From: a virus
IMG/VR virus record: IMGVR_UViG_3300032326_001076
Span: 1-32,358 of that record
Length of the DNA stretch: 32,358 nt
Direction: 5' to 3' (one strand)
The position numbers and the translations under genes are program-made. Shown piece by piece: positions 6,712 through 32,358 of this stretch (position 1 is the stretch's first letter; the number at the start of each line of letters is the position of its first letter). The notes under the pieces are model-generated. The model was given only the letters and a program-made list of their open reading frames with translations, was not told the DNA's origin and did no database searches.

Positions 6712-6741
6712 AAAAATAAACCTACATTTAAAAATTAAAAA

Positions 6742-8577
6742 ATGGGAGCATTATTAGAATCAGGTCTTGTTGGTAACATTGGTTTGAAACACCTAAAAGT
6801 TATCAAAGAAGATACAATTAACAAATGGGATAGATTAGGATTCCTAGACGGTCTTAAAGGACACATCAAAGAGAACATGGCACAGTTATATGAAAACCAA
6901 GCGTCTCACTTAATCAACGAAGCGGCTGCGACTGATAGCTCAGGTTCTTTCGAAACTGTAGTTTTTCCAATCGTAAGACGTGTTTTCTCTAAATTATTGG
7001 CTAACGACATCGTGTCTGTACAAGCAATGAACTTACCAATTGGTAAATTGTTCTACTTTATTCCTAAAATTCAAGGGTATAACGTAAACGGAAATGCTAC
7101 ACAAGACCCAACGGCGGGCGGTTCTCACGTTGCTCCTTTTGGAGCTCCAAATGGACCAACGAACATAGGTTTTGGTTATTCAGATTCTGATAAAAATCTT
7201 TATGATAGATTTTACGAAGGAAACGAACCAGCATTAGACCCTCCAGGATTGTTTGACTATTCTAAAGGTGCATTTTCAGCTAGAACGGTTTCAGCTTCTA
7301 CACAGGTATGGTCTTCAGGAAACCTTATTCAATCAGGATATCCAGCTAGTACAGAATTTAGAAAAGTTATTATCGCTATGTCTGGATTTAATAATTCAGG
7401 TGCTGGTAAATTAATCGGTCCTGATGGTAACGAAATGGACAATGAGGCATTTTTATCAGGTCTTGAAGTTACTTTAGTTACAAACGCAACTGCTAACGGG
7501 TTCTCTGGAACATCTTTGGGTTCATCTTTGGGTACGGGTCCATTATTATTTAGAGTTGTTACTCAAAAATATGGTAAAGGTATAGTACAGTACGGTACAA
7601 CAACAACCGCAACTTTCGATAATTTAGGTAATGGTGGTTCTTTCGATGATATTTGTAGTGCTAATGGTATTATTTACTTAGAAATCGATACTCAAGTACC
7701 TTGTTCTATTGGTGCTAATTCTATTGATGGATACAGTGGATTTACTACTCAGGCAGTAGCAACCGCATACAACCAAGCTTTCAAATGTACTTACAGAATT
7801 TATCAAGAACTTGAGTTCGAAGATAGAATTGGTGAGGTTTCTTTTGACCTACAATCAGTAACTGTTTCTGTAGCAGAAAGAAAACTAAGAGCACAGTGGT
7901 CTCCTGAATTAGCACAAGACGTTTCTGCATTCCATAACATCGATGCTGAAGCTGAATTAACAGCTTTATTATCTGAGCAAGTGGCGGCGGAAATTGACCG
8001 TGAAATTTTACGTGACTTACGTAAAGGTGCAGCTTGGACATTACGTTGGGATTACAACGGATGGAAAAGAGGAACTACTGCAAATCCATTAACTCAGTAC
8101 ACTCAAAAAGATTGGAACCAAACTTTGATTACTGCAATTAACCAAATTTCGGCACAAATCCACAAGTCAACACTTCGTGGTGGAGCTAACTGGATTGTTG
8201 TATCTTCTGAGGTTTCAGCGATTTTTGACGATTTAGAATACTTCCACGTATCTAACGCGGCTCCTGAGCAAGACCAATACAACATGGGTATTGAAAGAGT
8301 AGGTACTTTATCTGGTCGTTACCAAGTATATCGTGACCCTTACTTCCCACCAAACACAATTTTGTTGGGTCATAAAGGTTCTTCATTGTTAGATACTGGT
8401 TACGTTTACGCACCATATGTACCTCTACAATTAACACCTACAATGTACAATCCATTCAACTTCACACCTATCAAAGGTATTATGACAAGATACGCTAAGA
8501 AAATGGTTAACAACCGTTTCTACGGACGTATCACTGTTGACGGAGTACGTACATTTGATTTAAGAGAATTGAGATAA
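6742..8577 (+). CDS. 23: Major capsid protein (T4 gp23-like)
   Basis: 611 residues, longer than T4 gp23. The central and C-terminal parts are clearly gp23: QSVTVSVAERKLRAQWSPEL and AQDVSAFHNIDAEAELTALL (about residues 370-410), then a SGRYQVYRDPYFPP region and the terminal MTRYAKKMVNNRFYGRITVD. The N-terminal ~60 residues form the expected delta peptide. Cleavage by gp21 is predicted after Glu60 in SHLINE/AAATDSS, which fits the (I/L)-x-E rule and is close to the Glu65 site of T4. Two spans of about 40-90 residues rich in Gly/Ser/Thr (about 115-200 and 230-330) may hold surface insertions. The leader is A-rich with no Shine-Dalgarno or ATATTTAT box, so it is probably transcribed from the gp22 promoter. 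A strong terminator follows. Confidence 0.96.
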   Translation: MGALLESGLVGNIGLKHLKVIKEDTINKWDRLGFLDGLKGHIKENMAQLYENQASHLINEAAATDSSGSFETVVFPIVRRVFSKLLANDIVSVQAMNLPIGKLFYFIPKIQGYNVNGNATQDPTAGGSHVAPFGAPNGPTNIGFGYSDSDKNLYDRFYEGNEPALDPPGLFDYSKGAFSARTVSASTQVWSSGNLIQSGYPASTEFRKVIIAMSGFNNSGAGKLIGPDGNEMDNEAFLSGLEVTLVTNATANGFSGTSLGSSLGTGPLLFRVVTQKYGKGIVQYGTTTTATFDNLGNGGSFDDICSANGIIYLEIDTQVPCSIGANSIDGYSGFTTQAVATAYNQAFKCTYRIYQELEFEDRIGEVSFDLQSVTVSVAERKLRAQWSPELAQDVSAFHNIDAEAELTALLSEQVAAEIDREILRDLRKGAAWTLRWDYNGWKRGTTANPLTQYTQKDWNQTLITAINQISAQIHKSTLRGGANWIVVSSEVSAIFDDLEYFHVSNAAPEQDQYNMGIERVGTLSGRYQVYRDPYFPPNTILLGHKGSSLLDTGYVYAPYVPLQLTPTMYNPFNFTPIKGIMTRYAKKMVNNRFYGRITVDGVRTFDLRELR

Positions 8578-19065: not shown

Positions 19066-19777
19066 ATCTTTCTAATATTTTTCCAATTAATGGATTTCTT
19101 ACGTTTTTGGCATTTCTAAAATCATATATTCCAATATCGTTTACTTTATTAAATCTTTGAAGTGCGTCATAAAGTCCTGATTGTTTTTTATCTTTATAAC
19201 GGTCTGTTTGTTCTAAATCGCCAGATATAAAAAATTTACTATTGTAACCAATTCTTGTTAGTAATAATTTTATTTGATTCGGAGTTGCGTTTTGAGCCTC
19301 TTCAAATATTAAAATAGAATTATCAATATTCATTCCTCTCATATACGCTAAAGCAAAAACTTCTATAATTTCCGCTTCTTTTAATTTTTCACGAGCGTCT
19401 TTTCCAATTATTTTATTTAACAGATAATATGATGGAAAAATATATGGGTCCAATTTTTCCTCTAAATTACCCGGTAAACTTCCTAATTTTTCCTCAGCCT
19501 CAACCGCTGGTCTTACAATAATAATTTTTTCATATGAATTTGATGGGTCCATCAAAAGGTCAACAGCAGCCTTCATGGAAATATAACTTTTACCAACACC
19601 TGCGGGACCTGAACAAATAGTAATTTGATTTGAAATTAGTATATCATAATAATCTTTTTGTTCGTCAGATAAAAATTTACTTTTTTGTTTCTTTTTAACT
19701 ACTGAGTTTATAAAATCTTTTTTTGTGTAAGATTGTGGAATAACCGGTTCTTCTTGTGTTGTTTTTTTTCTAGTCAT
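19043..19777 (-). CDS. phoH: PhoH-like ATPase
   Basis: 244 residues, a single PhoH P-loop domain. Walker A is GPAGVGKS at residues 57-64. The Walker B-like strand reads NSILIFEEAQNATPNQIKLL (about 153-172), and a sensor-like FISGDLEQTDR follows. In most PhoH proteins the Walker B end is DEAQN; here it is EEAQN, a conservative change. PhoH genes are widespread in marine T4-like phages; a role in RNA metabolism or phosphate stress is suggested but unproven. The N-terminal 40 residues are Lys/Gln-rich. The start shares TAATG with the end of gmd, linking it to the sugar cluster transcriptionally. Confidence 0.9.
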   Translation of the reverse strand: MTRKKTTQEEPVIPQSYTKKDFINSVVKKKQKSKFLSDEQKDYYDILISNQITICSGPAGVGKSYISMKAAVDLLMDPSNSYEKIIIVRPAVEAEEKLGSLPGNLEEKLDPYIFPSYYLLNKIIGKDAREKLKEAEIIEVFALAYMRGMNIDNSILIFEEAQNATPNQIKLLLTRIGYNSKFFISGDLEQTDRYKDKKQSGLYDALQRFNKVNDIGIYDFRNAKNVRNPLIGKILERYDEENRN

Positions 19778-20751
19778 TATTTAATTGTATAATAATCTAA
19801 CCAATAGTCAATCATTTCATCTAACATTGATTCAAATGTATAATCATGTGACCATCCTGTTTTTATTTTTAATTTTGAGCTGTCCCCTTTCAAATCATGT
19901 AATTCCTCGGGTCTCAAAAATTTCTCATCTTGTTCAACATATTCAGACCAATGTAATCCTAATCTAGTAAAAACATAATTGACAAGTTCTCTTACAGAAT
20001 GAGATATACCAGTGGAACAAACAAAATCATCAGGATTATCTAATTGTAGAATTTCCCACATTGCTTTAACATAATCTTTAGCATGTCCCCAATCTCTTGT
20101 TGCATCAAGATTACCTAATTTTAATTTATTTGATAATCCTAATTTAATTTTAACCGCTTCTTTACAAACTTTATTAGTTACAAAATTAGTTCCTCTTCGT
20201 GGTGACTCATGATTAAACAAAATTCCATTTGAAATGTACATCCCGTATGAATTTCTATAATTACGACAGATATTATAGCTGAATACTTTAGCACAACCAT
20301 AAGGTGATACAGGGTTCATATGTGTAGTTTCTCTTTGATAACCATCAAAATCAATTGAATTACCAAACATCTCAGAAGAAGATGCTTGATAAATTTTTGT
20401 ATCAGGTTTAATTAATTTAACCGCCTCAAGAAGGTTTAAAGTTCCTAATCCTGTTACATTTGATGTATAAATTGGTTGGTCAAACGAAATTCTAACATGT
20501 GATTGTGCGGCTAAATTATATATTTCATCGGGTTGTGTTTTTTGAATAACTGAAATTAATGATGAAATATCTGTTAAGTCGGCATAATGTAGTTTTATCT
20601 TATCGTAGACATTGTCTAATCTAGCTGTTTGATTTTCAGCAACAGAATTTCTTTTTAAGGTACCATGAACTTCATATCCTTTTTCTATTAAAAATTCTGA
20701 TAAATATGAACCGTCTTGTCCGTTAATTCCGGTAATTAAAGCTTTTTTCAT
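19777..20751 (-). CDS. gmd: GDP-mannose 4,6-dehydratase
   Basis: 324 residues, typical for Gmd. It converts GDP-D-mannose to GDP-4-keto-6-deoxy-D-mannose using tightly bound NADP. The Rossmann motif GINGQDGSYLSEFL starts at residue 8. Substrate and catalytic residues are visible: SSSEMFG (Ser125-Ser126-Glu127) and SPYGCAK (Tyr151, Lys155). The GDP-binding stretch FNHESPRRGTNFVTNKV and LGNLDATRDWGHAKDYVKAM are close to textbook Gmd. It is 8 nt downstream of a ColD-type gene and is the entry enzyme for all GDP-deoxyhexose products of this cluster. Host GDP-mannose would be the substrate, since no mannose-1-P guanylyltransferase is visible here. Confidence 0.96.
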   Translation of the reverse strand: MKKALITGINGQDGSYLSEFLIEKGYEVHGTLKRNSVAENQTARLDNVYDKIKLHYADLTDISSLISVIQKTQPDEIYNLAAQSHVRISFDQPIYTSNVTGLGTLNLLEAVKLIKPDTKIYQASSSEMFGNSIDFDGYQRETTHMNPVSPYGCAKVFSYNICRNYRNSYGMYISNGILFNHESPRRGTNFVTNKVCKEAVKIKLGLSNKLKLGNLDATRDWGHAKDYVKAMWEILQLDNPDDFVCSTGISHSVRELVNYVFTRLGLHWSEYVEQDEKFLRPEELHDLKGDSSKLKIKTGWSHDYTFESMLDEMIDYWLDYYTIK

Positions 20752-20759
20752 ATTCCCAA

Positions 20760-21914
20760 TTATCCATTTAAATTTATAATATCAGAAATAACCTCAATAG
20801 AATCAATTGATAAATTCACATGATTTGGAACGTAAAATCCATATTTATCAATAACCTCACAGTTTTTGAAATATTTTTTTTCATAATTCTCAAACCACAT
20901 TGGTTTATTTGACATATTACCTGCAATTAAGGGTCTTACTTCAATATTATTTTTCTTTAAATTATATATTATTTTTTCTTTATTCTTATTAACAATAGGA
21001 AATGCAAAATTAGAAATAAAATTATAATTTAAATCTGCCAAATTTAATTCATTGACTTTTATTTTATCGATATAACTTTTAAAATTTATGTTTCGATTCT
21101 GAGAATACACATCTAATTTGTCAATTGCCTTTAATCCAATGAACGCTTGTAAATCTGTTGACCTTAGATTAAAACCTGGTAAATAAAAATTATATAAAGA
21201 ATCAAATTCACTTATGGAATATTTTTGTCTAAGTTCATTTTGTTTTTTTTCGGGTAAATCTCTATCCCAACCATGACTTCTCATCATTAATAGTGTATGA
21301 TAAAAGTCTTCATCATTTGTACATATAAAACCACCCTCAATAGTACTTAAGTGATGACCAAAATATAATGAGAAAAATGATGCAAACCCAAATGACCCCA
21401 AATACTTATTTTTAAATTTAGACCCCATACTTTCACAAACATCTTCAAGAAGAATTACGTCATATTTTTTACATAATTCGACTATTTTTTCCATTTCAGG
21501 AACTAGTCCTAAAGGACTTACTAAAATAAAACAAGATGGAGTTTCATTAATAAAAATATTTTCTAATTCATTTAAATCACACGATAAATCATGCAAATTA
21601 CAATCACACATTATAGGTTCCATACCTAATAAAATTGCGGAACTGACATCTGTTGCCCAACTTAATGATGGAACTACAATTTTTTTATTTTTTATTTTTT
21701 TACCATGTAATAAGGCCGCCAATGTTAATAATATCGAAGATGACCCTGAGTTTACATAAACTGTATAATTAACACCTATTTTAGATGACCATTTTTCTTC
21801 TAATTGAATAGTTAACTCCCCTTTAGTTAACTTTGGAATATCGTCTTGACTTAACCACTCAATAAGAGAGTTTATATCATTTTTATCAATTGTATCACTT
21901 ACTAATTTTATCAT
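20760..21914 (-). CDS. ColD-type pyridoxamine-phosphate 3-dehydratase (copy A)
   Basis: The DegT/DnrJ/EryC1 aminotransferase fold, but the PLP-anchoring lysine is replaced: the segment reads FSLYFGHHLSTIEGGFICTN, with His-His at 187-188 when counted from the ATG at 21914. This is the hallmark of GDP-4-keto-6-deoxymannose 3-dehydratase (ColD) and related RfbH-type enzymes, which use free PMP to remove the 3-hydroxyl. Other cofactor regions are present: SGSSSILLTL, LLEDVCESMGS and the MMRSHGWDRDLP stretch. An ATG eight codons upstream (21938) also exists, but the internal start aligns with the paralogue and reduces the overlap with the upstream gene to 20 nt. With Gmd and the ColC-like neighbour it would complete a 3,6-dideoxyhexose route. 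Confidence 0.85.
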   Translation of the reverse strand: MIKLVSDTIDKNDINSLIEWLSQDDIPKLTKGELTIQLEEKWSSKIGVNYTVYVNSGSSSILLTLAALLHGKKIKNKKIVVPSLSWATDVSSAILLGMEPIMCDCNLHDLSCDLNELENIFINETPSCFILVSPLGLVPEMEKIVELCKKYDVILLEDVCESMGSKFKNKYLGSFGFASFFSLYFGHHLSTIEGGFICTNDEDFYHTLLMMRSHGWDRDLPEKKQNELRQKYSISEFDSLYNFYLPGFNLRSTDLQAFIGLKAIDKLDVYSQNRNINFKSYIDKIKVNELNLADLNYNFISNFAFPIVNKNKEKIIYNLKKNNIEVRPLIAGNMSNKPMWFENYEKKYFKNCEVIDKYGFYVPNHVNLSIDSIEVISDIINLNG

Positions 21915-22803
21915 AATAAATTTTTTTAACACCTTCACTTAAATTTATAAATTTAAAATCAGGAAATATATTTTTTAATTTTTGGTTAGACACGTCTTTT
22001 CGATATTGTCCATTAGGTTTTGAACTATCATAAATTATTTCTAAATGATTTGAATTTGTGGCGTTTAACGCGATTTTAGTCATTTCATTTATAGTATAAA
22101 CTTCATCATTTGCAACGTTGAAATTATCTGTAATATCATTATCTATACATAATTTTATAATATTAGATAAGTCATCCGCGTACATAAATTGTCTTATTGG
22201 TGTGCCGTCCCCGAATAAAACTATTTTATTTTCATTATTTAAATTTGCGTCATATATTTTTTTAATTAAAGAAGTTACAAAATGACTTTTATTTGGGTCT
22301 TCTTTATCATTATCACCATATAAGTTACAAGGAATTAAATAATTATATTTAGTGTTATGTTGTTTGTTCATTGCGTCAATTTGAACTGCTAAACATCTTT
22401 TAGAATATCCATAACTAAAATTAGTTTCAGTAGGAGGTCCATCATGTAGTTGGTATTCATTAAGAGGGTATGTATTAGACACATCAGGATATATACAAGT
22501 GCTTAAAATTCCAATAAATCTTTCAACATTATATTTTAATGAATATTTTAATAACAAAGTATTCATTAAAATGTTTTCAGTAAAATAATCATAAGGATAA
22601 TTTATATTATCAATGATTCCACCTACTTTAGCCGCTAAATGAACTATGACTGTCGGACGATATGTCTCAAATAATTTAATTACCGAAGTTTCATTAGTTA
22701 AATCAAAATCTGATGAGTTAATATATATTGCGTTTGGTATAATTTTTTTTAATGATTTTCCTACTAAACCTGACCCCCCTGTTACTAAAATTTTTTTTTC
22801 CAT
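21895..22803 (-). CDS. GDP-fucose synthase / ColC-type epimerase-reductase
   Basis: 302 residues, SDR fold. Rossmann motif GGSGLVGKS at 9-17. Residues matching those of E. coli GDP-fucose synthase are all kept with an offset of 5-6: STCIYPD (Ser101, Cys103), YGYSK (Tyr131, Lys135) and KSHFVTSLIKK (His174). Cys and His are the epimerisation pair, Tyr and Lys the reductase pair. FGDGTPIRQFMYADDLS and NGQYRKDVS complete the family pattern. Fcl makes GDP-L-fucose from the Gmd product; the close relative ColC epimerises at C5 only and makes GDP-L-colitose from the ColD product. The adjacent ColD-type gene favours the ColC role, but sequence alone cannot exclude fucose. Confidence 0.87.
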   Translation of the reverse strand: MEKKILVTGGSGLVGKSLKKIIPNAIYINSSDFDLTNETSVIKLFETYRPTVIVHLAAKVGGIIDNINYPYDYFTENILMNTLLLKYSLKYNVERFIGILSTCIYPDVSNTYPLNEYQLHDGPPTETNFSYGYSKRCLAVQIDAMNKQHNTKYNYLIPCNLYGDNDKEDPNKSHFVTSLIKKIYDANLNNENKIVLFGDGTPIRQFMYADDLSNIIKLCIDNDITDNFNVANDEVYTINEMTKIALNATNSNHLEIIYDSSKPNGQYRKDVSNQKLKNIFPDFKFINLSEGVKKIYYDKISK

Positions 22804-22807
22804 ATTT

Positions 22808-23584
22808 TTAAATTGTTGTTACCCCTTTTTTTTGAACTACTATTGTTGCACAATCTTGGGCGAATTTAATAGACATTTCAATATTTTTAGTTCTAACATA
22901 TTCTGCGACTAATCCTGAAATAAATGTATCACCAGCACCTGAGACATCTTTAATTTGGACTTTAGGCACTGTGAAAATTTTATCTTGGTATTTACAACCT
23001 TTATCTGAAAGAGTGATTATTAATTTTTTTTCTAAATCTAAATTATTAATATTGAACTTTGTATGTTCATATTCCACATGATTTATTTTAATAAAATCAG
23101 CATTAATACACCATTCATCTAATATTTTTTTAGTGTCAATAAATATGTTTTTATTATTAATACAAATAAATTGAATATCTTCTTCGGTTAAAAATCCTTT
23201 GTCATAATCACTAATTATAATTGAGTCATATGTGACATCGTTATATTGATTATTAACAATTTTTTTTAAAACTTCTTGGTCTATCCTTGATATTCTGTCA
23301 TTTTCATCAATTCTAATTAAAATTTGATTTGTTCTTTCATCAACATAACGGGTTTTTCTTATCACTTCATCGTTTGTGATTAAAAAAACCTCGACTCCGA
23401 TTGATTTTAAATTGTTAACTACATTTCCAGCCATTCCATTGTTACTTGTTGTTTGTGTAGGATTAAAAACTGGAACAGGGGCTTCAGGGGCTAATCTAAC
23501 GACACTTCCATAAGTGAAATTATCAATACAGGAATCCCCGACTACTAAAATTTTAACTTTATTGTATTTTTCTTTATTAATCAT
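22808..23584 (-). CDS. PfkB-type sugar kinase, HldE kinase-domain-like, shortened
   Basis: 258 residues, versus about 315 for the HldE kinase domain. The N-terminal signature RLAPEAPVPVFNPTQTTSNN and GMAGNVVNNLKSIGVEVFLI is that of D-glycero-D-manno-heptose-7-phosphate kinase (RfaE/HldE domain I). The PfkB catalytic motif DVSGAGDTFISGL is intact near residue 215, with the Asp as base. About 35 residues expected between the GV.V.L strand and the substrate loop (IRKTRYVDERTNQILIRIDE) are missing. The substrate may be a heptose phosphate or another sugar phosphate. The HldE adenylyltransferase domain and GmhA/GmhB are not visible, so any heptose route depends on the host. Upstream lies a 61-nt AT-rich gap. 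Confidence 0.8.
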   Translation of the reverse strand: MINKEKYNKVKILVVGDSCIDNFTYGSVVRLAPEAPVPVFNPTQTTSNNGMAGNVVNNLKSIGVEVFLITNDEVIRKTRYVDERTNQILIRIDENDRISRIDQEVLKKIVNNQYNDVTYDSIIISDYDKGFLTEEDIQFICINNKNIFIDTKKILDEWCINADFIKINHVEYEHTKFNINNLDLEKKLIITLSDKGCKYQDKIFTVPKVQIKDVSGAGDTFISGLVAEYVRTKNIEMSIKFAQDCATIVVQKKGVTTI

Positions 23585-23645: not shown

Positions 23646-24203
23646 TTATAATGTTGTAGAAAAATTATCTAAAAAATTATTAAATCCAATTTTACAATTT
23701 TTTATCCATGAATTATAGTCTCCGTCATCTGAAACCCATTTATATGATGAAAATTTTACTTTATATAATTCACAAATTTTAGCATGAGAATAACACTCCA
23801 TATCTAAAACTGAACACTGATTAACCATTCTAATGTAATTTTGAGAATACTTTAATATTTCATCATGGTAAAAAAAATAATCAGTTGTAAAACAAGAAAA
23901 CTCAGAATTTTTATCAATTTCAATAAATCCTAATTCATCATTATTTGTCTTACCGTATTCAAAAATTGGGGTAGCGTCAATATCCTCAAAACATTTACCA
24001 ATTTTAATTATTTTACCGGGTTCTAAATTTGTCGAACCACAAGAACCTATGTTAATAATTTCATTAAAACCTTCTGAAATTAATTTTGAAGTTGTTGACA
24101 TTGCATTTAATTTACCTAATCCTGAATAAAAAACAGGAATACCATTAATTTCTTTTGAATTATTAACTTCTTCAGGTATTGCAACCACAAATGCTTTATT
24201 CAT
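23646..24203 (-). CDS. Nucleoside phosphorylase/nucleosidase family protein (MTAN-like)
   Basis: The start is taken at the ATG 24203 (185 residues, MNKAFVVAIPEEVNNSKEIN); a GTG four codons upstream is possible. It has the phosphorylase/nucleosidase fold with the glycine turn IINIGSCGSTNLEPGKII and the active-site region SVLDMECYSHAKICELY, in which Met-Glu contacts the ribose. KWVSDDGD follows, where the Asp would protonate the base as in MTA/SAH nucleosidase. It is shorter than typical MTANs (~230). It may hydrolyse a purine nucleoside such as SAH or 5'-deoxyadenosine, which fits the radical SAM gene in the same cluster, but this link is speculative. Confidence 0.75.
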   Translation of the reverse strand: MNKAFVVAIPEEVNNSKEINGIPVFYSGLGKLNAMSTTSKLISEGFNEIINIGSCGSTNLEPGKIIKIGKCFEDIDATPIFEYGKTNNDELGFIEIDKNSEFSCFTTDYFFYHDEILKYSQNYIRMVNQCSVLDMECYSHAKICELYKVKFSSYKWVSDDGDYNSWIKNCKIGFNNFLDNFSTTL

Positions 24204-24258
24204 ATCCAATGACACTTTTTACTGTTAAAATATTGTTTAATTTTTTTAAATTGCCCAT
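24196..24258 (-). CDS. Possible 20-residue leader ORF before the nucleosidase gene
   Basis: ATG at 24258 opens MGNLKKLNNILTVKSVIGYE and ends in TAA at 24196-24198, overlapping the nucleosidase ATG by 8 nt. It has the A-rich leader typical of this genome and fills the 64-nt gap after the RmlC-like gene. Translational coupling is plausible. It could equally be chance in AT-rich DNA. Confidence 0.25.
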   Translation of the reverse strand: MGNLKKLNNILTVKSVIGYE

Positions 24259-24267
24259 ATTTAATTA

Positions 24268-24765
24268 TCAAAAATTTATAAATTTTGAATTTTTATCTCG
24301 GTCAGAAAGTATTGGTGTTTTTATTGGCCAATCTACATTAATTTTTGGGTCGCTCCAGTTAATTGAAAATTGCTCATCAACATCGGGATAATTTCCATCG
24401 TAAGACCATTTATAAAAAAAAATAGCATCATCACTTAAAACTTGGTGAGCATTTAAAAAATTTGGTGGAACTAATACTGTTTTTTTATTTTTATCGTTTA
24501 ATATAAAATTTTCTGTTTCTAAAAAAGTTTTAGAGTCTTTTCTATAGTCAACAACGGATAAAAAAATTTCACCGTAAAGACAAGTTATTAGTTTCCATGA
24601 TTTATTATCTCCATGAAAACCTCTTAATACTCCTTTTTTTGATTTTGCAACTTTATCATGATTAAATTGTAAATTTGGAATATACTCATCCTTATTCCAT
24701 ACTGTCCAAAGTTCACCTCTTTCGTCCGAATAACAACTAGGTGTATTAATTTTTACATCTTCCAT
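24268..24765 (-). CDS. RmlC-type sugar epimerase (cupin)
   Basis: 165 residues, close to the dTDP-4-dehydrorhamnose 3,5-epimerase family (~180). Family marks in order: DERGELWTVW, VLRGFHGDNKSWKLITCLYG (about residues 46-65, holding the catalytic-His region), EIFLSVVDYRKDSKTF, VLVPPNFLNAHQVLSDDAIF, and the C-terminal WSDPKINVDWP...PILSDRDKN. The enzyme would invert one or both centres next to the 4-keto group of a nucleotide sugar. No dTDP-sugar genes (RmlA, RmlB, RmlD) are visible, so it may act on a GDP-4-keto sugar made by Gmd and ColD, or on host dTDP-sugar. It is 4 nt from the second ColD-type gene. Confidence 0.83.
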   Translation of the reverse strand: MEDVKINTPSCYSDERGELWTVWNKDEYIPNLQFNHDKVAKSKKGVLRGFHGDNKSWKLITCLYGEIFLSVVDYRKDSKTFLETENFILNDKNKKTVLVPPNFLNAHQVLSDDAIFFYKWSYDGNYPDVDEQFSINWSDPKINVDWPIKTPILSDRDKNSKFINF

Positions 24766-24769
24766 ATTT

Positions 24770-25951
24770 TTATAATGAAATGTTATTTAATAAGTTCACT
24801 AACAAATCAATTTTTTCAGTATTTAATGTTGGATAATTACCGATGTACCAGCTAAAATTATGTACGTGCTCAACATTTTGGAAGTTAGATAACTTATTTT
24901 CATATTCTTTAAATAAAAATGGTTGTCTTAATTGGTTACCACCTCCTGATAACCCACGTCTAAACTCAATTCCGTTTTCATTTAAAGTCTTCTCAATTAA
25001 ATCTCGTAATTCAAAAGATTTTTCTCTCATGATAACAATAAATGCGTAATTACATTGACCTTCAGTTGATAACTCTGTAATGTACTTATTAGAATCTAAA
25101 TTTAAAATAAATTTATCAAAATTATTTTTTCTAATTTGATTATTTGTATCTAATTTTTTTAGTTGGGAAATTCCTAAAACCGCGTTTATTTCGGTACTTC
25201 TAAAATTATGAGAAGGTCTTAAAAAAATAAAATCTTTATTCAGTGTTGGATTATCATTTATTATTTTATTTCTTAGATTTTCATCAGTAATTTCTCTAAC
25301 CATCCCATGAGACCTAAGAGCTCTACAAACTTGATAAAAATATTCATCATTTGTACAAATCATTCCGCCCTCAATTGTTGACATATGATGTGCAAAATAA
25401 AAACTAAAGTTACTTACAAACCCAAAAGAACCTACTTTTTTTTGTTTAAATTCAGTACCGTGAGATTCACACACATCCTCAATTAACAAGATATTTTTTT
25501 CTTTACAAATTTCTAAAAGTTCGTCAGTTAAACCATTAATACCTAAAACGTGTGTTAAAAAAATTGCTTTTGTTTTAGGAGTAATTGATTCTTTTAATTT
25601 ATCTAAATCAAAAGATAAATTTTTTAAATTTATATCACAAAAAACAGGTTTCATTCCACTAAATAAAACAGCAGAAATATCTGAAATCCATGTTAATGGG
25701 GGAACAATAATTTCACCTTCACCGTATATGTAATTAAGCGCCAATAATGTTAATTCATTTGCAGATGCTCCTGAGTTTAACATTAAACTGTATTTAACAC
25801 CTAACCATTCTGACCATTTTTTTTCAAATTCTAAAACTTTGGGTCCATTAGTTAATTTTGGTATTTTTTCTTGGTTTAAAAAATTAATTAATGATTGAAC
25901 ATCCTCTTTTGTGATATTATCATCCATTAATGGTAAATTAAAATTATTCAT
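24770..25951 (-). CDS. ColD-type pyridoxamine-phosphate 3-dehydratase (copy B)
   Basis: 393 residues, paralogue of the gene at 20760-21914. It has the same DegT fold and the same substitution of the PLP lysine by His-His: FSFYFAHHMSTIEGGMICTN (His188-His189). NSGASANELTLLALN, LLIEDVCESHGTEF and RALRSHGMVREI are the cofactor-binding parts. The two copies differ in the stretch after the RSHG motif and in the C-terminal half, which lines the sugar pocket, so they may act on different nucleotide sugars. The neighbour is an RmlC-type epimerase, whereas copy A is next to Gmd and the ColC-like enzyme. The start shares TAATG with the GT-B gene. Confidence 0.85.
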   Translation of the reverse strand: MNNFNLPLMDDNITKEDVQSLINFLNQEKIPKLTNGPKVLEFEKKWSEWLGVKYSLMLNSGASANELTLLALNYIYGEGEIIVPPLTWISDISAVLFSGMKPVFCDINLKNLSFDLDKLKESITPKTKAIFLTHVLGINGLTDELLEICKEKNILLIEDVCESHGTEFKQKKVGSFGFVSNFSFYFAHHMSTIEGGMICTNDEYFYQVCRALRSHGMVREITDENLRNKIINDNPTLNKDFIFLRPSHNFRSTEINAVLGISQLKKLDTNNQIRKNNFDKFILNLDSNKYITELSTEGQCNYAFIVIMREKSFELRDLIEKTLNENGIEFRRGLSGGGNQLRQPFLFKEYENKLSNFQNVEHVHNFSWYIGNYPTLNTEKIDLLVNLLNNISL

Positions 25952-27048
25952 TAGTTTAACATTTTATCAATTATACTTTCAAATTCTAAATCTCTTTTTT
26001 CTTTTGAAAATTTAATTTTTGAGTTTATTAGATTATTTTCTTTAATTAAATCCATATTTGAAGGGTTCTCAATTAAATCGATTATTTTAGATTCAATTGA
26101 ATTACATAATTCAATATTTGGAGATTCTAAATGGAGTGAATATTTTTCTTTTAATACACCGTTTTCAATATATGATGATTTATACTGACCTTTACACATA
26201 AATTCTTCATCTAAAAATTCATTAAACCCCCACCCATCTGAACCTAAAACAATATTACCATATGTAAGTGCTTTAACAACTGACATAGAATGGATTCTAC
26301 ATGCTGGTATTAAAAAAATATCAGTATCTTTTAATATTTTATGAATTGTATTATCGGTATACATTTTTCTACCATGATTTATTTCATCATGTGGTAAAAT
26401 ATTAATAAAAGGACATGATATAATCCAATCATTTAGTGATTTATCAATTTTAATATCACCCAATAAATTTAAAAAAACATTTTTATAACCTTTTTCTATT
26501 ATATTTTTAAATGCAATAATAACCTCAACACCACCTCTTAATGGAAAATTGTTTTCCGTTCCCCCAAATGAATTAGTAAATGTTAATATTATTTTGTCTT
26601 TATTTGTTTTTTTAATAACCTCAATCGGGCTTTGATATGCTAAACTTAAATAAAATAATTTATTTTTAATTGTTTCATCATTATTAAAAATTGTCCCTAT
26701 TGAGTCAATGGTTTGTTTCATGTGACAAATAACACCCTTAAAATTTGGGTTTTGAAACATCTGTTTATAATTATTTAACCAATGACAGTTATTATAATCC
26801 CATTCAAAATTACTTCCGTTATGTATGTGTGGGAAAAATAAAGTGATATAATCTTCAATAATAATTGAATGATTATTTTGAATATTCTTATAGTAAGTTG
26901 GTATGAATGTTAATTCAGAAGACAGGTCGTCATTTACTATTTCATATTTATTTAAAGATGAACTAAATAAAGAATTATATAATGGATGGTCAGCAATTAA
27001 AGGATGTACTGACATTGACTTTGCGTAATTTATTTTTTTTTTAAACAT
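25951..27048 (-). CDS. GT-B glycosyltransferase
   Basis: The start is taken at the ATG 27048, which overlaps the upstream stop by 8 nt and gives MFKKKINYAKSMSVHPLIAD (365 residues); an ATG ten codons upstream (27078) is possible. The second domain is the recognisable part: RIHSMSVVKALTYGNIVLGS and DGWGFNEFLDEEF form the donor-binding region of family 4-like enzymes. The first domain has few recognisable marks. A sugar from the local pathway could be its donor; the acceptor is unknown. It follows two tandem GT-A genes and precedes ColD copy B. Confidence 0.7.
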   Translation of the reverse strand: MFKKKINYAKSMSVHPLIADHPLYNSLFSSSLNKYEIVNDDLSSELTFIPTYYKNIQNNHSIIIEDYITLFFPHIHNGSNFEWDYNNCHWLNNYKQMFQNPNFKGVICHMKQTIDSIGTIFNNDETIKNKLFYLSLAYQSPIEVIKKTNKDKIILTFTNSFGGTENNFPLRGGVEVIIAFKNIIEKGYKNVFLNLLGDIKIDKSLNDWIISCPFINILPHDEINHGRKMYTDNTIHKILKDTDIFLIPACRIHSMSVVKALTYGNIVLGSDGWGFNEFLDEEFMCKGQYKSSYIENGVLKEKYSLHLESPNIELCNSIESKIIDLIENPSNMDLIKENNLINSKIKFSKEKRDLEFESIIDKMLN

Positions 27049-27718
27049 ATTGAGAATACCCTTTATGAAATTTATCAACCAGTTCTGAAAATACTGAAAA
27101 ATCGTGACCGTTATGTGTATTGTAACTTGTAGGTGGACCTATATGTATGGTTGTATTCCAAACTTCAACCATAGTTTCGTCAAACATGTAAGTTAACCAA
27201 TATCCTAACCAATTATCCGCATAATGATTTTTAAATTTTGGATGATATAAAAATCCTCCAAAATAATTCATAACAGTTTCTTTGCTTACAATTGGATATC
27301 TATGAACTCCATATTTTGGATATCCTTTAGGCATAAATGAACCTAATCCGTTATCACTACCTAAAGATAAAATTTTAATATTTCGATTATCATACACGTA
27401 TGATTCTAATAAATCAATTGATGTGAAGAAAAACTCATCAAAAAAACAATCATCAACAGAATGAACTAACCATTTACCTTCGGCAACATTTACTAAATAG
27501 TTATAAGCGGCAACACATCCATCTGAAAATGTAACTTCTTCAAACCATCTTACATTTTCTCCTTCAATTTTATGTTGACTATAAACTAAAATTTCGTAAG
27601 TGTATTTATTTTGAGATTTCCCTAAACTATTTATATTTTCGATAGATTTCATAACAAAATCTGATGGATTTCTATCCGTAGTATTACTTGGTAATAAAAA
27701 ACTTATATCGACTTTCAT
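27041..27718 (-). CDS. GT-A glycosyltransferase-like protein (tandem copy 1)
   Basis: 225 residues. The N-terminus DISFLLPSNTTDRNPSDFVM and the acidic motif GKWLVHSVDDCFFDE (about residues 80-95) indicate a family 2-like nucleotide-sugar fold. The C-terminal half holds GGFLYHPKFKNHYADNWLGY W (about 154-174), shared with the next gene upstream: the two are tandem paralogues. It is shorter than usual family 2 enzymes (~250-300). Donor and acceptor are unknown. Confidence 0.72.
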   Translation of the reverse strand: MKVDISFLLPSNTTDRNPSDFVMKSIENINSLGKSQNKYTYEILVYSQHKIEGENVRWFEEVTFSDGCVAAYNYLVNVAEGKWLVHSVDDCFFDEFFFTSIDLLESYVYDNRNIKILSLGSDNGLGSFMPKGYPKYGVHRYPIVSKETVMNYFGGFLYHPKFKNHYADNWLGYWLTYMFDETMVEVWNTTIHIGPPTSYNTHNGHDFSVFSELVDKFHKGYSQYV

Positions 27719-27720
27719 AA

Positions 27721-28380
27721 TTAAACGTAATTTTTATATCCTTCTTTATTTTTATTTATTAATTCTTTAAATATGTTTTCATCATATTCATCATGAATTT
27801 TGTCACATGAATTATTAAATGTTATCATATTAAACTGGTTGTATTCTATTGTTGGTTCTCCTTGTTCATCCATCCAATATCCTAACCAATTGTCAGGATA
27901 ATGATGTTTAAATTTTGGATGATAAATAAATCCGTTTAGATATTCATTAACAGTTTCCCTTTTAAAAACAGGGTATCTTGCAATAATACCTGAAGAATTG
28001 CAATAGTCAGGTAATTGACATGAGCCATGAAAATTAGTTGGTAAACATATTATTTTATATTTTTTATTTTCAAACATTTCAGACTCAAGTATATCAATAA
28101 TTGACGGTACATCTTTATCAAAAAAATGGTCGTCCGAACATAATATAATATAATTCCCATTTGAAACATTATATCCTTCATTATAGGCGTTAACACATCC
28201 CATTTTATCTCCAGTTTCTTTTAAGAAAATAACATTTTCACCTGAAATTTCATTTGGACTAACAACTATAATTTCATGAGTTTTACCTTGAAAATTTAAA
28301 GAATTAATATTATCAATAACTCTTTTAGAAAAATGGTTGTGGTCTCGATTTGATGGTAGAATAAAACTAATATCTATCAT
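27721..28380 (-). CDS. GT-A glycosyltransferase-like protein (tandem copy 2)
   Basis: 219 residues, paralogue of the preceding entry, 2 nt away. It shares the opening (IDISFILPSNRDHNHFSKRV), the acidic motif YIILCSDDHFFDKD and NGFIYHPKFKHHYPDNWLGY followed by W. The copies differ in the middle (a Cys-containing loop, GSCQLPDYCNSSG, here versus a Gly/Pro-rich loop there) and at the C-terminal end, so acceptor specificity may differ. The strongly conserved HPKFK.HY.DNWLGYW is not a motif I know from standard family 2 enzymes and may define a small family. Confidence 0.72.
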   Translation of the reverse strand: MIDISFILPSNRDHNHFSKRVIDNINSLNFQGKTHEIIVVSPNEISGENVIFLKETGDKMGCVNAYNEGYNVSNGNYIILCSDDHFFDKDVPSIIDILESEMFENKKYKIICLPTNFHGSCQLPDYCNSSGIIARYPVFKRETVNEYLNGFIYHPKFKHHYPDNWLGYWMDEQGEPTIEYNQFNMITFNNSCDKIHDEYDENIFKELINKNKEGYKNYV

Positions 28381-28387
28381 TAGTTAA

Positions 28388-29140
28388 TTAATTATTTTGA
28401 TTTATAATATTTAAATACAGATTTTTAGCTTGTTGCTCAACTAATGTATAATAGTATTCATTCTCAGGATTTTTTATACCATCCATTTCCATATTATTAA
28501 ATGAATTTCCAAATCCCGAAGTTCCGTCTGTCGGATTTCTTAAATAGAAATTTGGTACAGTTTTCCATAAATCAATATTATATTTTTCATACATTAATAT
28601 AAATAATAATGTTTTCCAGTTGTCTGCATTACATTGCCATCCATAATTTTGTAAAACTTCAATGCATTTAACTGAAAAACAAGGTAGACTAACCCCCTCA
28701 TTATGTTTCCAAACTGACATTATGTTTGGTTGCCTCCAGTTATTTTTATATAACTCAACCCTTGGTCTACGTGGACCAACAAAACAATAAGGGTCTTTTA
28801 TTTCTAAAATATCATCAATAAACCCATTTTTTATAAATGTAAAATCATCAGAACATAATAAAACAAATTTTGAATTTAAATTTCTTTGACTAAATAAATA
28901 AAAATGGTCTAAATGTATTGAGTGTCGTCCTTCCCCTCTGGACCAAACAAACTTTTTAATGTTTAATGGAAATTGTTCAAAAAACGATTCATCAGGTTGT
29001 GAATCATCATCACTGTCGTATTTTATTAATACTTCACAATTTGATTTGTTTCCACCACATTCAACTAAACTAGATAGTAATTTACCAATATTACTATCTT
29101 TATTATCTTTAACTCTGGATGTTAATAATAATGTAATCAT
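28388..29140 (-). CDS. GT-A glycosyltransferase-like protein
   Basis: 250 residues. The opening ITLLLTSRVKDNKDSNIGKL and the acidic motif KFVLLCSDDFTFIKNG (about residues 91-106) fit a nucleotide-sugar-binding fold of the same kind as the two tandem neighbours, but the HPKFK motif is absent. Instead there is GPRRPRVELYKNNWRQPNIM and a C-terminal region with NADNWKTLLFILMYEKYNID. Its closest relation is probably to the tandem pair, more diverged. Donor and acceptor are unknown. Confidence 0.65.
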   Translation of the reverse strand: MITLLLTSRVKDNKDSNIGKLLSSLVECGGNKSNCEVLIKYDSDDDSQPDESFFEQFPLNIKKFVWSRGEGRHSIHLDHFYLFSQRNLNSKFVLLCSDDFTFIKNGFIDDILEIKDPYCFVGPRRPRVELYKNNWRQPNIMSVWKHNEGVSLPCFSVKCIEVLQNYGWQCNADNWKTLLFILMYEKYNIDLWKTVPNFYLRNPTDGTSGFGNSFNNMEMDGIKNPENEYYYTLVEQQAKNLYLNIINQNN

Positions 29141-29141
29141 A

Positions 29142-30098
29142 TTATTTTTTAATTATATTTCGATTTATACTGTTGTAACTAAAATCTTCTTCATTTCTAT
29201 ACAAATATTTTTTTAAAAATTTTCGTAATTCATCATTTTTACATAATTGATTTTCATCAAAACATTCTTTTTTGTGCATTTTAAACCTTCTTAATTCTTC
29301 ATAACCAAAACCACATTCAGTGCCTTCAGGAAATGAAATAATTTGTTCCATGGTGTATGGAGGATAAACATCATCCCAAGTACCATGAGGAGCCTTAAAC
29401 CCTGATGAATGACCGTCTAATCCGTCTCCGTCGTTTGGTAAACCATCTGGAACATTAAACGCATGGTGAACTCTTACTTTAGATGTTATTATCCATTGTT
29501 TTTTTATTGCAGCATTTATAAAAGAAAAAACTGATTCTGTACAATACGATTTAAATATGTCAGGAATTACATTACCGTACTCTTTGAATATATCTTTAGA
29601 AAAAATTTGACAATGCAAATTACACGCCTTTCCTACCGGAACAAGTAAATTCTCTCGTAAAATTGGCTTTGAATATTCATTCATACCAAACCATACCCAT
29701 CCCATATCGTTATCTACTTGAGCACTAACCATACCAAAATTACCTGATTCAAACTCGTCAAATAAATTTTTTAATTGAGTATTATCTGTAAACTTAATTC
29801 CTGAATCTAAATACAAATACCCTTCAAACTCTCCGTATTCTTCAATACATTCTCTAACTGTGTCGTTGAAGGTAATATTTACAGGTAATGTGTCGTATAT
29901 TCTATTAACAAAGTCAACATCAACATTAGAAACTACTTTATTTATTTGTTCATCGGTATTTAAACAAGATGAAACTGCTAAAATATAATCATTATAATCT
30001 TGATTTCTAATTGTTTTTAATGCGGACACATAATAATCAGAGTTATCTTTACCTGAAATGCCACAAGTATTGTATACTACTAAATATTTTTTTTTCAT
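29142..30098 (-). CDS. GT-A glycosyltransferase-like protein
   Basis: 318 residues. The N-terminal LVVYNTCGISGKDNSDYYVS is followed by ALKTIRNQDYNDYILAVSSC, as in family 2 enzymes that start with a sugar-nucleotide fold. The metal-binding motif is probably GYLYLDSGIKFTDN (about residues 93-106). The middle has VRVHHAFNVPDGLPNDGDGL, a loop rich in Asp/Gly that may bind metal or acceptor. The C-terminal ~70 residues are Lys/Glu-rich. It overlaps the ThDP beta-subunit gene by 4 nt (ATGA), so the two are translationally coupled. Confidence 0.65.
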   Translation of the reverse strand: MKKKYLVVYNTCGISGKDNSDYYVSALKTIRNQDYNDYILAVSSCLNTDEQINKVVSNVDVDFVNRIYDTLPVNITFNDTVRECIEEYGEFEGYLYLDSGIKFTDNTQLKNLFDEFESGNFGMVSAQVDNDMGWVWFGMNEYSKPILRENLLVPVGKACNLHCQIFSKDIFKEYGNVIPDIFKSYCTESVFSFINAAIKKQWIITSKVRVHHAFNVPDGLPNDGDGLDGHSSGFKAPHGTWDDVYPPYTMEQIISFPEGTECGFGYEELRRFKMHKKECFDENQLCKNDELRKFLKKYLYRNEEDFSYNSINRNIIKK

Positions 30099-30631
30099 TT
30101 TTCATTATAATAATCTCCCCACTCAACTAAAATTGTGGGTTTATTGTCAGTTCTTTCATATGCGTATTTATAAGACTCAAAAATTTGATATGGTTCGTCT
30201 AAACGGATTATATCTACAAAATCACACATCGCTTTAAATCCTGATGTAAAATCACCTACGTGTTGGTGTTGAGGATGTAAAGGTCTTTGTGAGCCAATAG
30301 ATGTTCTTATAATAATTTTAGGAGTATATCCTCCATTAGACATTAATTTAACTTTATCAATATGATTCACAATTTGATTAGCGGCTAAAAGTAAAAAATT
30401 CCATCTAGGATATATTGATATTGGAACTGTACCATTTAATGACATACCAAATGTTAAACCCATTTGCATATCTTCATTTACCGGCATTTCTAATAGTTTA
30501 GATTTATTAACGTCCTTCAAGGTATTCGTCATTGCAGTACCTGCATAATCAACCGCCTGACCTAAAAATAAGGTGTCATTTTTTTCACCTAGCCAATCCA
30601 TTGATTTTTTTAATTCATCAAAATAATTCAT
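30095..30631 (-). CDS. Thiamine-diphosphate enzyme, E1 beta-like subunit (miniature)
   Basis: The start is taken at the ATG 30631 (178 residues), 13 nt after the alpha-gene stop; an ATG 23 codons upstream would overlap that gene and add an unrelated lysine-rich tail. The sequence follows the N-terminal (PYR) domain of pyruvate dehydrogenase E1 beta: TLFLGQAVDYAGTAM, then the acidic residue of LLEMPVNEDMQMG (Glu53) that activates the thiazolium, YPRWNFLLLAANQIVNH, and the substrate-side His motif HPQHQHVGDF (His122, His124). It ends with ILVEWGDYYNEK, the point where E1 beta continues into a C-terminal domain; that ~130-residue domain is absent. With the alpha subunit it would form one active site. 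Confidence 0.85.
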   Translation of the reverse strand: MNYFDELKKSMDWLGEKNDTLFLGQAVDYAGTAMTNTLKDVNKSKLLEMPVNEDMQMGLTFGMSLNGTVPISIYPRWNFLLLAANQIVNHIDKVKLMSNGGYTPKIIIRTSIGSQRPLHPQHQHVGDFTSGFKAMCDFVDIIRLDEPYQIFESYKYAYERTDNKPTILVEWGDYYNEK

Positions 30632-30644
30632 TTTTTTATTTTTT

Positions 30645-31250
30645 TTAAAATTGTATTCTTTTTCCTGAACCTGCGTGAGGATACTTAGATTCATATTCAT
30701 AATAGATTATTTTTCTTTTTTCATTTTTGAAAAAATGTTCATCACTATTCCAAACCTCACTTGTAATAGAACAAACTGATTTGTTGTTATTTTCAATAAC
30801 AAATGTTATAGGTAAATCATGATTCACTGAATATTTCCAGTTTTCAAAAAATGCTCCTGTTTCTGAAGCCATATCACCAACAAAACACCACACATGATTT
30901 GTTTGACCCTTACGTTTTATATCTAAAGCAACACCTGTTGCAATAGGAATACTTCCTGTTACTATTGCGGACGAATAGATATTAAATTCTGGATAACATA
31001 ATGTGATAGATTTACCATCTAAAATATCTTTCGTTAAAATATCTTGAGGAACACCTTTTAGTAAACATTGATAATGTGACCTCCATGTACAAAAAACCCA
31101 ATCTTCATCTTTAATGTTTTTAAAAATTTCAATCATTTGATTTTCATTACCATCATATAAATGTATTGGGGCTTTTATTTTTCCTTCGTTGAAGAAATCA
31201 CCAATTCTTGTTTCAAAATTTATTAATTCTTCTTTTGTATAATTTTTCAC
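30645..31250 (-). CDS. Thiamine-diphosphate enzyme, E1 alpha-like subunit (miniature)
   Basis: 201 residues with a GTG start; an in-frame stop lies two codons upstream and the next ATG is too far in. E1 alpha marks in order: FCTWRSHYQCLLKGVPQD (His59 in the place of the substrate-binding His), SAIVTGSIPIATGVALDIKR, and the ThDP motif GDMASETGAFFENWKYSVNH ending with LPITFVIENNNKSVCS (GDM at 125, NN at 154). The C-terminal ~100 residues of standard E1 alpha are missing; instead a short tail ends in KYPHAGSGKRIQF. No lipoyl E2 or E3 gene is visible, so an oxidative dehydrogenase complex is unlikely. A non-oxidative transfer of a two-carbon unit is more likely. Confidence 0.85.
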   Translation of the reverse strand: MKNYTKEELINFETRIGDFFNEGKIKAPIHLYDGNENQMIEIFKNIKDEDWVFCTWRSHYQCLLKGVPQDILTKDILDGKSITLCYPEFNIYSSAIVTGSIPIATGVALDIKRKGQTNHVWCFVGDMASETGAFFENWKYSVNHDLPITFVIENNNKSVCSITSEVWNSDEHFFKNEKRKIIYYEYESKYPHAGSGKRIQF

Positions 31251-31274: not shown

Positions 31275-32358
31275 TTATTCTAATATTTTTCTTTTCAGTT
31301 TAATTTTAACCATTTCATTGATATTATCAATAGCAACTTGACCGAATTTATTTTTTATTTTTTCTAAAAATTTATGATTTGTATGGTATTCATAGTATGA
31401 ATCATCTCTAAATTTTAAGATTTCAGCGGCACTTAATGATTCTGTGGGTAATGGTAAAGTGTTATACCCATGAAATGAATAACCCTCATAAGTATCAGGT
31501 AACTGAATACCCTTTTCGATTGCATCCTTATAAAGTTTACTTCCTGGTAATGCCATAGTTGCGTAGGCATTCCACCCAAAAGTACAAAGTTCTTTAGATA
31601 GTTCTAAAGTTTTTTTCATACTATCAATTGTATCGCCTGGCAAACCAAAAATATAATTGGCCATAACCTCAATATCCGATTCATGTACCTGTTCAATAAC
31701 TTTTTCGATATCCACATCCTCAAATTTACCTTTAGATACTTCTAACCTTACCGTTTTATCACCACTTTCAATTCCTAACGCCAACCATTTTATACCTGAT
31801 TCTCTAATTAATTTTAATAAATCAGGTCTACGAACTGTATCAACTCTAGAATATGCCCACATACGTAAGAATTTACCGTATCCTCTTTCTTTTAACATTT
31901 CACATAATGGTACATAATATTTTCTATTTAATAGAAACATTTCATCAGTTATTTTAATAGTGTGAACCCCTAATTCAACTAGTTTATCAAATTCACCAAT
32001 AATAAATTCGGGTGACCAAAATCTCATTGAGCTATAGTTACCGGCAACACCAATTTCATCATTATCATTTCTATTAATGATATTAATCATACAAAAATCA
32101 CAACCAAACTGACAACCTAATGATGTTTGAATTGCCGCGTAAGGACTTCGTTTATTCTCATCATATTCAGCGTGCCACATAGGCGCTCTATATAAATCTA
32201 AAGGCGTTTCTTTATATGGTAATAAGTCCCATGAGTATCCTGGTAAATCAATATCCATTCTTTCAGACGGAACTACTTTTTCAGGAAAAGTCATTTTTAT
32301 TTCACCATTTTTTCTATATACAATACCTTTGATATTTTCTAAATTTTCTTCATTAATT
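31275..32358 (-). CDS. Radical SAM protein, B12-binding class, 5' end outside window
   Basis: The frame stays open upstream of the ATG at 32294 through the right edge, reading ENLENIKGIVYRKNGEIK, so the gene is partial and 32294 is internal. GI.YRK.G.I before a P....LPGYSWDLLP stretch is the usual linker between an N-terminal cobalamin-binding domain and the radical SAM core; the B12 domain itself would be outside. The cluster motif is CQFGCDFC (Cys-x3-Cys-x2-Cys), binding [4Fe-4S] and SAM. LALGIESGDKTVRLEVSKGK and YIFGLPGDTIDSMKKTLELS are family marks. Possible reactions are methylation or rearrangement of a sugar or amino group; no substrate can be read. It is 24 nt upstream of the ThDP alpha gene. 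Confidence 0.88.
   Translation of the reverse strand, partial: INEENLENIKGIVYRKNGEIKMTFPEKVVPSERMDIDLPGYSWDLLPYKETPLDLYRAPMWHAEYDENKRSPYAAIQTSLGCQFGCDFCMINIINRNDNDEIGVAGNYSSMRFWSPEFIIGEFDKLVELGVHTIKITDEMFLLNRKYYVPLCEMLKERGYGKFLRMWAYSRVDTVRRPDLLKLIRESGIKWLALGIESGDKTVRLEVSKGKFEDVDIEKVIEQVHESDIEVMANYIFGLPGDTIDSMKKTLELSKELCTFGWNAYATMALPGSKLYKDAIEKGIQLPDTYEGYSFHGYNTLPLPTESLSAAEILKFRDDSYYEYHTNHKFLEKIKNKFGQVAIDNINEMVKIKLKRKILE

Follow-up and report, generated by a model that had tools for sequence, protein, structure and literature searches.

Full-size pyruvate dehydrogenase (PDH)-like pairs are known or proposed, in antibiotic pathways, to transfer acetyl from pyruvate to the C3 or C4 ketones of ketosugars (PMC12247030, PMC4425429). 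In Campylobacter jejuni, Cj1427 oxidizes C4 of GDP-D-glycero-D-manno-heptose, and Cj1427 with a C3-dehydratase gives GDP-3-deoxy-4-keto-heptose in vitro, with [M-H]- at 616.08 (PMC10680097); in C. jejuni HS:5 a ColD-type C3-dehydratase works on a GDP-4-keto-heptose, and GDP-4-keto-3,6-dideoxymannose is the product of C3-dehydratases from E. coli O55:H7 and Y. pseudotuberculosis IVA (PMC10440746). Published marks of thiamine diphosphate (ThDP) enzymes are the motif GDX25-30N in the pyrophosphate-binding (PP) domain and a catalytic Glu in the pyrimidine-binding (PYR) domain (PMC2831816).

The pair and its sugar gene cluster

The DNA analyzed here (the window, the whole of a 32.4-kb virus record) contains portal, head protease, major head protein and PhoH genes, and its minus strand carries a long sugar gene cluster. 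The two genes of the pair lie in this cluster.

30645..31250, minus strand: ThDP enzyme α subunit (PP domain), a miniature E1-α; GTG start, 201 aa, Pfam E1_dh 4.1e-16
30095..30631, minus strand: ThDP enzyme β subunit (PYR domain); 178 aa, Pfam Transket_pyr 1.7e-8

E1_dh and Transket_pyr, on separate chains, are the only above-cutoff profile matches of the pair. The first covers profile positions 6–163 of 300 and the second nearly its whole domain, and Pfam finds no Transketolase_C in β. As listed, the β open reading frame reaches 30700 and overlaps α; its conserved start codon, an ATG, lies at 30631, 13 nt past the α stop. One PHROG, phrog_34187 (405 aa), spans α and β in tandem.

The other sugar genes of the cluster that could be assigned are as follows.

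31275..32357, minus strand: radical SAM protein, truncated at its 5' end where the record stops; Pfam Radical_SAM 1.4e-18
24770..25951, minus strand: DegT1, ColD-like PMP-type 3-dehydratase in which His replaces the PLP Lys; Pfam DegT 6.7e-71
24268..24765, minus strand: RmlC-like 3,5-epimerase; Pfam dTDP_sugar_isom 1.6e-38
23646..24215, minus strand: MTA/SAH nucleosidase-like protein; PNP_UDP_1 3.1e-9, NCBIfam MTA/SAH nucleosidase 5e-13 (below cutoff)
22808..23584, minus strand: PfkB kinase, a relative of the heptose-7-phosphate kinase domain of HldE; rfaE_dom_I 1.6e-39 (below curated cutoff)
21895..22803, minus strand: GDP-fucose-synthase-like epimerase/reductase (Fcl-like); GDPFucSynFcl 1.8e-54 (below cutoff)
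20760..21938, minus strand: DegT2, a second ColD-like 3-dehydratase; best PDB matches ColD entries, 200 bits
19777..20751, minus strand: GDP-mannose 4,6-dehydratase-like protein (Gmd); GDP_Man_Dehyd 2.7e-117, PHROG 540

The best PDB matches of DegT1 are the ColD entries 2gms and 3gr9 (191 bits), against 129 bits for perosamine synthetase and 119 bits for CDP-sugar 3-dehydrase. Relatives of the radical SAM protein are about 510 aa long, with an N-terminal B12-binding domain in the full-length relative; the protein (31275-32357 in the window, 5616-7145 in locus L041) has a distant match to AprD4 (6fd2). A possible role of the MTA/SAH nucleosidase-like protein is to clear radical-SAM by-products. 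Its gene occurs together with the radical SAM gene in 15/16 loci by a narrower count (p 0.11) and in 16/16, viral loci only, by a wider one (p 0.012), kinship being ignored in both. The Fcl-like protein matches GDP-L-fucose synthase in the PDB at 2e-57, and Gmd, DegT2 and Fcl (19777-22803) probably form a separate hexose branch making GDP-colitose or a related dideoxyhexose. Five ORFs between DegT1 and β (25951-30098) have no significant Pfam match save a weak GT2 hit (E 0.0015) in the ORF at 27721-28380; they may be divergent glycosyltransferases.

Catalytic residues and predicted folds

The ThDP motif of α is GD-X28-N, reading GDM rather than GDG; the M is present in 106 of 107 relatives and the D is replaced by E in 31 of them. 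Also invariant or nearly so are R57, H59 (H in 106/107), E153, N155 and H192 in α, a conservation seen again in a 46-row alignment, and E53, R76, W77, N78 and H124 in β. Since the activating Glu of β is present in 107/107, both published marks of a ThDP enzyme are found in the pair. A first-pass annotation of this DNA had stated that the motif, the activating Glu and substrate His residues are all kept, and this is borne out. The substrate His of β is probably H124 rather than H122: the latter aligns without gaps with the PDH β histidine yet varies among the relatives, whereas H124 is invariant.

AlphaFold2 models of the single chains (pLDDT 94.8 for α and 90.0 for β) have predicted PP and PYR folds of the E1 type. 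Foldseek matches the α model to human PDH E1 α (E 2e-12, TMq 0.80) and the β model to E1 β (E 5e-13, TMq 0.86), in agreement with the original assignment. The same annotation had both subunits lacking the C-terminal parts of standard E1 subunits, which holds for β, where Transketolase_C is absent, but not in so simple a form for α. The α alignment takes 240 columns for 201 residues of α against a 363-residue E1 α, and these extra columns suggest that the modelled α is shortened internally, with the last strand before YPHAG kept, and is not a plain C-terminal cut.

Distribution and conservation

Relatives of β are present in at least 144 IMG/VR stretches and in 81 bacterial genome stretches (80 of each were kept for analysis). 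Many of the bacterial carriers are SAR11, SAR86, SAR116, Nitrospira, Verrucomicrobia, Burkholderiales and Prochlorococcus records, largely metagenome-assembled genomes (MAGs) and single cells; some MAG contigs may have been assigned to the wrong genome. The α relatives are mostly 190–220 aa and the β relatives mostly 170–200 aa long (about 200/177 aa in nearly all), and the two genes are adjacent in nearly all cases, with a gap within 25 bp in most. Between the window and its nearest relative, phage locus L041, dN is about 0.06 and dS 0.86 for α (dN/dS about 0.07), and dN is 0.03 and dS 1.36 for β (dN/dS about 0.02), so the pair is under strong purifying selection. The adjacency of the genes, the recurring short form and the low dN relative to dS exclude chance and decay; frameshifted or decayed E1 genes are thus ruled out by a conserved short form with dN/dS below 0.1.

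The pair is a widespread viral and bacterial family that is not peculiar to the phage of the window. In a 108-row tree the window falls within a clade that is mostly viral. Mapping the virus/cell label onto this tree takes 9 changes, of which supported branches force 3 or more, so the genes appear to have crossed between viruses and cells on several occasions. A plasmid search returned distant relatives alone (23–31% identity), some of them full-length E1-like proteins, and searches of published papers returned no report of the pair in phages.

Three phage loci (L018, L026 and L027) have two differing miniature pairs, the second β being 48% identical to that of the window, a hint of either two sugars or a second branching step. 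Eight other loci (L037, L064, L119, L121, L127, L128, L130 and L154) have a miniature pair plus matches to a longer E1-like pair, of 279/305 aa in L127. Fusions of the two genes are seen in L081/L082; an apparent fusion in L163 (386 aa) proved to be an ORF extended upstream.

The absence of E2 and E3 genes noted in the first-pass annotation extends well beyond the window, which has none. Among 144 loci scanned with E2 and E3 motifs there was no match. Protein queries against 164 loci found 0 homologues of E3 and one of E2, which lies about 9 kb off on the opposite strand in L137. An acetoin-dehydrogenase cluster served as positive control; the E2 motif was detected in it and the E3 pattern was silent, so the negative result for E3 rests on the homology search. 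In E1 complexes the C-terminal domain of β binds E2, and the pair, having neither this domain nor E2/E3 partners, is ruled out as the E1 of a PDH or acetoin complex. One locus filed as phage, L197 (CAKLQH020000018.1, 'Acinetobacter phage MD-2021a'), contains an acetoin dehydrogenase cluster, chorismate synthase and other host-type genes, and looks bacterial rather than viral.

Gene neighborhood

We surveyed genes within 8 kb of β in the 144 loci with enough flanking sequence, labeling them by homology to proteins of the window or of other loci; many contigs are fragments, and the loci share descent, so the counts overstate independence. DegT genes lie near the pair in 124 loci, HddA- or HldE-type kinases in 116, Cj1427-like short-chain dehydrogenase/reductase (SDR) genes in 107, B12 radical SAM genes in 105 and RmlC-like genes in 48. 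In whole loci, SDR and DegT occur together in 103 and are joined by the kinase in 91, although some loci have no DegT or no SDR; HddC and GmhA recur with the pair in many loci. An SDR gene pair replaces the B12 radical SAM gene in other loci (Fisher p 5e-6, kinship ignored).

The DegT genes are mostly of one kind. Across all loci, 144 of 157 DegT matches have His for the aminotransferase Lys (H-type, ColD-like), and an H-type gene is present in 136/164 loci, that is, in 136 of the 137 that have any DegT; the K-type alone occurs in one. On the other hand, a control sample of 28 DegT genes from ten host genomes has 21 of K-type and 7 of H-type, and six of these seven bear the module's own motif and look like the module gene. 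The linkage of the pair to ColD-type genes, which the first-pass annotation had offered as a check, is therefore very strong. It is also backed independently of the short form, since on Azospirillum lipoferum 4B plasmid AZO_p6 (NC_016588.1; L196, 5028-8366) full-length E1 α/β genes are followed directly by an H-type DegT gene.

The Cj1427-like proteins match PDB entries 6vo6/6vo8, which we take to be Cj1427, at E 1e-103 (phage L041) and 2e-110 (Nitrospira). The window shows no such gene because the record stops partway through the radical SAM gene; in L041, whose β is 93% identical to that of the window, it lies directly upstream of the radical SAM gene, and the downstream order DegT1-RmlC-MTAN-PfkB is common to both. 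The module includes relatives of Cj1427 and of the C3-dehydratase together with the ThDP pair. Cj1427 makes L-2-hydroxyglutarate; the idea that an L-2-hydroxyglutarate oxidase gene tracks the Cj1427-like genes was unsupported (12/17 against 97/127, p 0.56).

Function of the pair

With the ColD-type linkage supplying a 4-ketone, and full-size E1-like pairs known or proposed to acetylate ketosugars, we infer a C4 acetyl transfer. The pair would be a minimal α/β ThDP carboligase whose neighbors make an NDP-3-deoxy-4-keto-sugar and which acetylates that sugar at its C4 ketone, a reading to which we give a probability of about 0.6. In it, α would provide the PP domain and β the PYR domain, and the donor would be a 2-oxo acid, most likely pyruvate, giving a two-carbon acetyl unit. 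In most relatives a Cj1427-type GDP-heptose 4-dehydrogenase would form the 4-ketone, the ColD-type PMP dehydratase would take off the 3-hydroxyl, and the pair would join the acetyl unit to C4 of the 3-deoxy-4-keto-heptose. Given the Cj1427-type and ColD-type neighbors in most relatives, the product would be a 3-deoxy-4-C-acetyl heptose, which the radical SAM, RmlC-like and SDR enzymes may then modify before it is handed to a surface or virion glycan. What is observed is the genes, their conservation, their predicted folds, the lack of E2/E3 and the linkage with heptose-kinase, ColD-type and Cj1427-type genes; catalysis, donor, acceptor, product and glycan destination are inferred from these.

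Several other functions were weighed. The pair might act in the same glycan pathway with no branching of a ketosugar, as a decarboxylase of 2-oxo or imino acids or as a supplier of acyl groups, for example to the radical SAM step. Minimal split ThDP decarboxylases do exist (Foldseek also matches the pair to AzcB/AzcC, an α-imino acid decarboxylase with chains of about 169 aa), and the B12 radical SAM linkage is nearly as close as that of ColD. Nonetheless, in sequence and fold the pair is nearest to 2-oxo acid dehydrogenase E1 and not to the decarboxylase superfamily, and with ColD-type genes so closely linked a 3-deoxy-4-ketone is the natural acceptor, so we consider this unlikely. Rather improbable is a transketolase-like enzyme that builds a sugar-phosphate skeleton, such as a heptulose phosphate, ahead of GmhA, kinase and nucleotidyltransferase. 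GmhA, HddA/HldE-like kinases and HddC are indeed found in many loci, and a fused cyanophage form of the pair lies among kinase, isomerase and nucleotidyltransferase genes. However, the PP domain has E1_dh, not the transketolase N-type, as its best match (α matches the E1_dh and PDH E1 α models, and the transketolase model weakly, at 1e-4), the ColD linkage would be left unexplained, and cells already own a transketolase that makes sedoheptulose 7-phosphate available.

Very improbable, in our estimation, is the function proposed in full by the first-pass annotation, in which the pair acts on GDP-4-keto-3,6-dideoxymannose to give a yersiniose-like branched hexose. The window does encode a 4,6-dehydratase resembling Gmd, along with another ColD-like protein, and this hexose is a product of known C3-dehydratases (PMC10440746). 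The claim that the phage makes such a 4-keto-3,6-dideoxy substrate survives to the extent that the Gmd/ColD/Fcl-like set could make the hexose. But DegT2, Gmd and Fcl look like a colitose-type set separate from the pair, of the two ColD-like genes it is DegT1 that accompanies the pair in its closest relative, and Gmd-like genes lie near about 16 of 144 pairs against 107 for the Cj1427-like gene. The acceptor is thus likely an NDP-3-deoxy-4-keto-heptose and not GDP-4-keto-3,6-dideoxymannose, because Cj1427-type genes, HddA/HldE kinases, HddC and GmhA recur and Gmd is rare; the sugar-branching role itself is favored by the ColD linkage and the lack of E2/E3, with a heptose in place of the hexose. 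Finally, a degenerate or stand-alone E1 that uses host E2/E3 would fit the E1 ancestry of the pair, but has next to nothing in its favor when nearly all relatives lack the E2-docking β C-terminal domain and the neighbors are constantly sugar genes and not E2/E3.

If the C4-acetylation reading is correct, this is a compact enzyme for placing carbon branches on sugars; acetyl-branching, described for antibiotics and for a few O-antigens, then extends to phages and to marine bacteria of great abundance, SAR11 among them, and a sugar class to seek in the surface glycans of the carriers is predicted. The proposed acceptor is already accessible through the published Campylobacter enzymes. More tentatively, and with somewhat less than even confidence, we suggest that a pathway not described before, common to phages and to abundant bacteria of aquatic habitats, leads to a new class of C4-branched 3-deoxy-heptoses. 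Its key enzyme would be an E1-family carboligase of unusually small size, and its set would be the Cj1427-type dehydrogenase, the ColD-type dehydratase, the miniature E1-type carboligase and the B12 radical SAM enzyme. Phages that encode a large part of the pathway may be using it to change the glycans of the host or of the virion, for instance as a barrier to other phages.

Comparison with known systems

The C. jejuni GDP-heptose pathways (Cj1427; HS:5 C3-dehydratase) resemble the module in the C4-oxidation and PMP-dependent C3-deoxygenation of a GDP-heptose, and the word thiamin is absent from PMC10440746 and PMC10680097. AzcB/AzcC have small separate chains like those of the pair but match it weakly, E1 subunits being far closer. 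YerE-type lyases (yersiniose A and relatives) likewise are proposed to place a pyruvate-derived two-carbon unit on a deoxy-ketosugar (PMC12247030); however, YerE is a flavoprotein of the decarboxylase superfamily, whereas the phage pair is E1-type and made of two chains, not a single-chain protein of that superfamily.

Both halves of the pair match one protein of 402–405 aa in cyanophages (ADO97531 of S-SM2, AIR93527 of P-TIM68, and phrog_34187), a single chain with the GDG motif and 33–42% identity to the pair; such fused relatives are already annotated as 'transketolase central region-containing protein'. Searches of the S-SM2 and P-TIM68 genomes turned up neither a ColD-like nor a Cj1427-like gene, so the fused branch must use another acceptor or chemistry. 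The wider family therefore does not need a 3-deoxy-4-keto-heptose acceptor, which limits what can be concluded for the miniature pair.

The closest parallels are the α-KADH2 acetylases, AviB1/AviB2 (avilamycin), Pau11/Pau12 (paulomycin), KbDH-α/β (kibdelomycin) and the aldgamycin enzyme, which like the pair are E1-like α/β ThDP proteins encoded beside deoxy-ketosugar genes without E2/E3 (PMC4425429, PMC12247030). They differ in size (325/345 aa in Pau11/Pau12 against 201/178 aa in the phage), in having GDG where the phage pair has GDM, and in setting, antibiotic clusters as opposed to heptose/glycan modules in phages and in bacteria that are mostly Gram-negative. The best reading of the pair would accordingly be as a minimal relative of the AviB1/AviB2 (α-KADH2) ketosugar C-acetylases.
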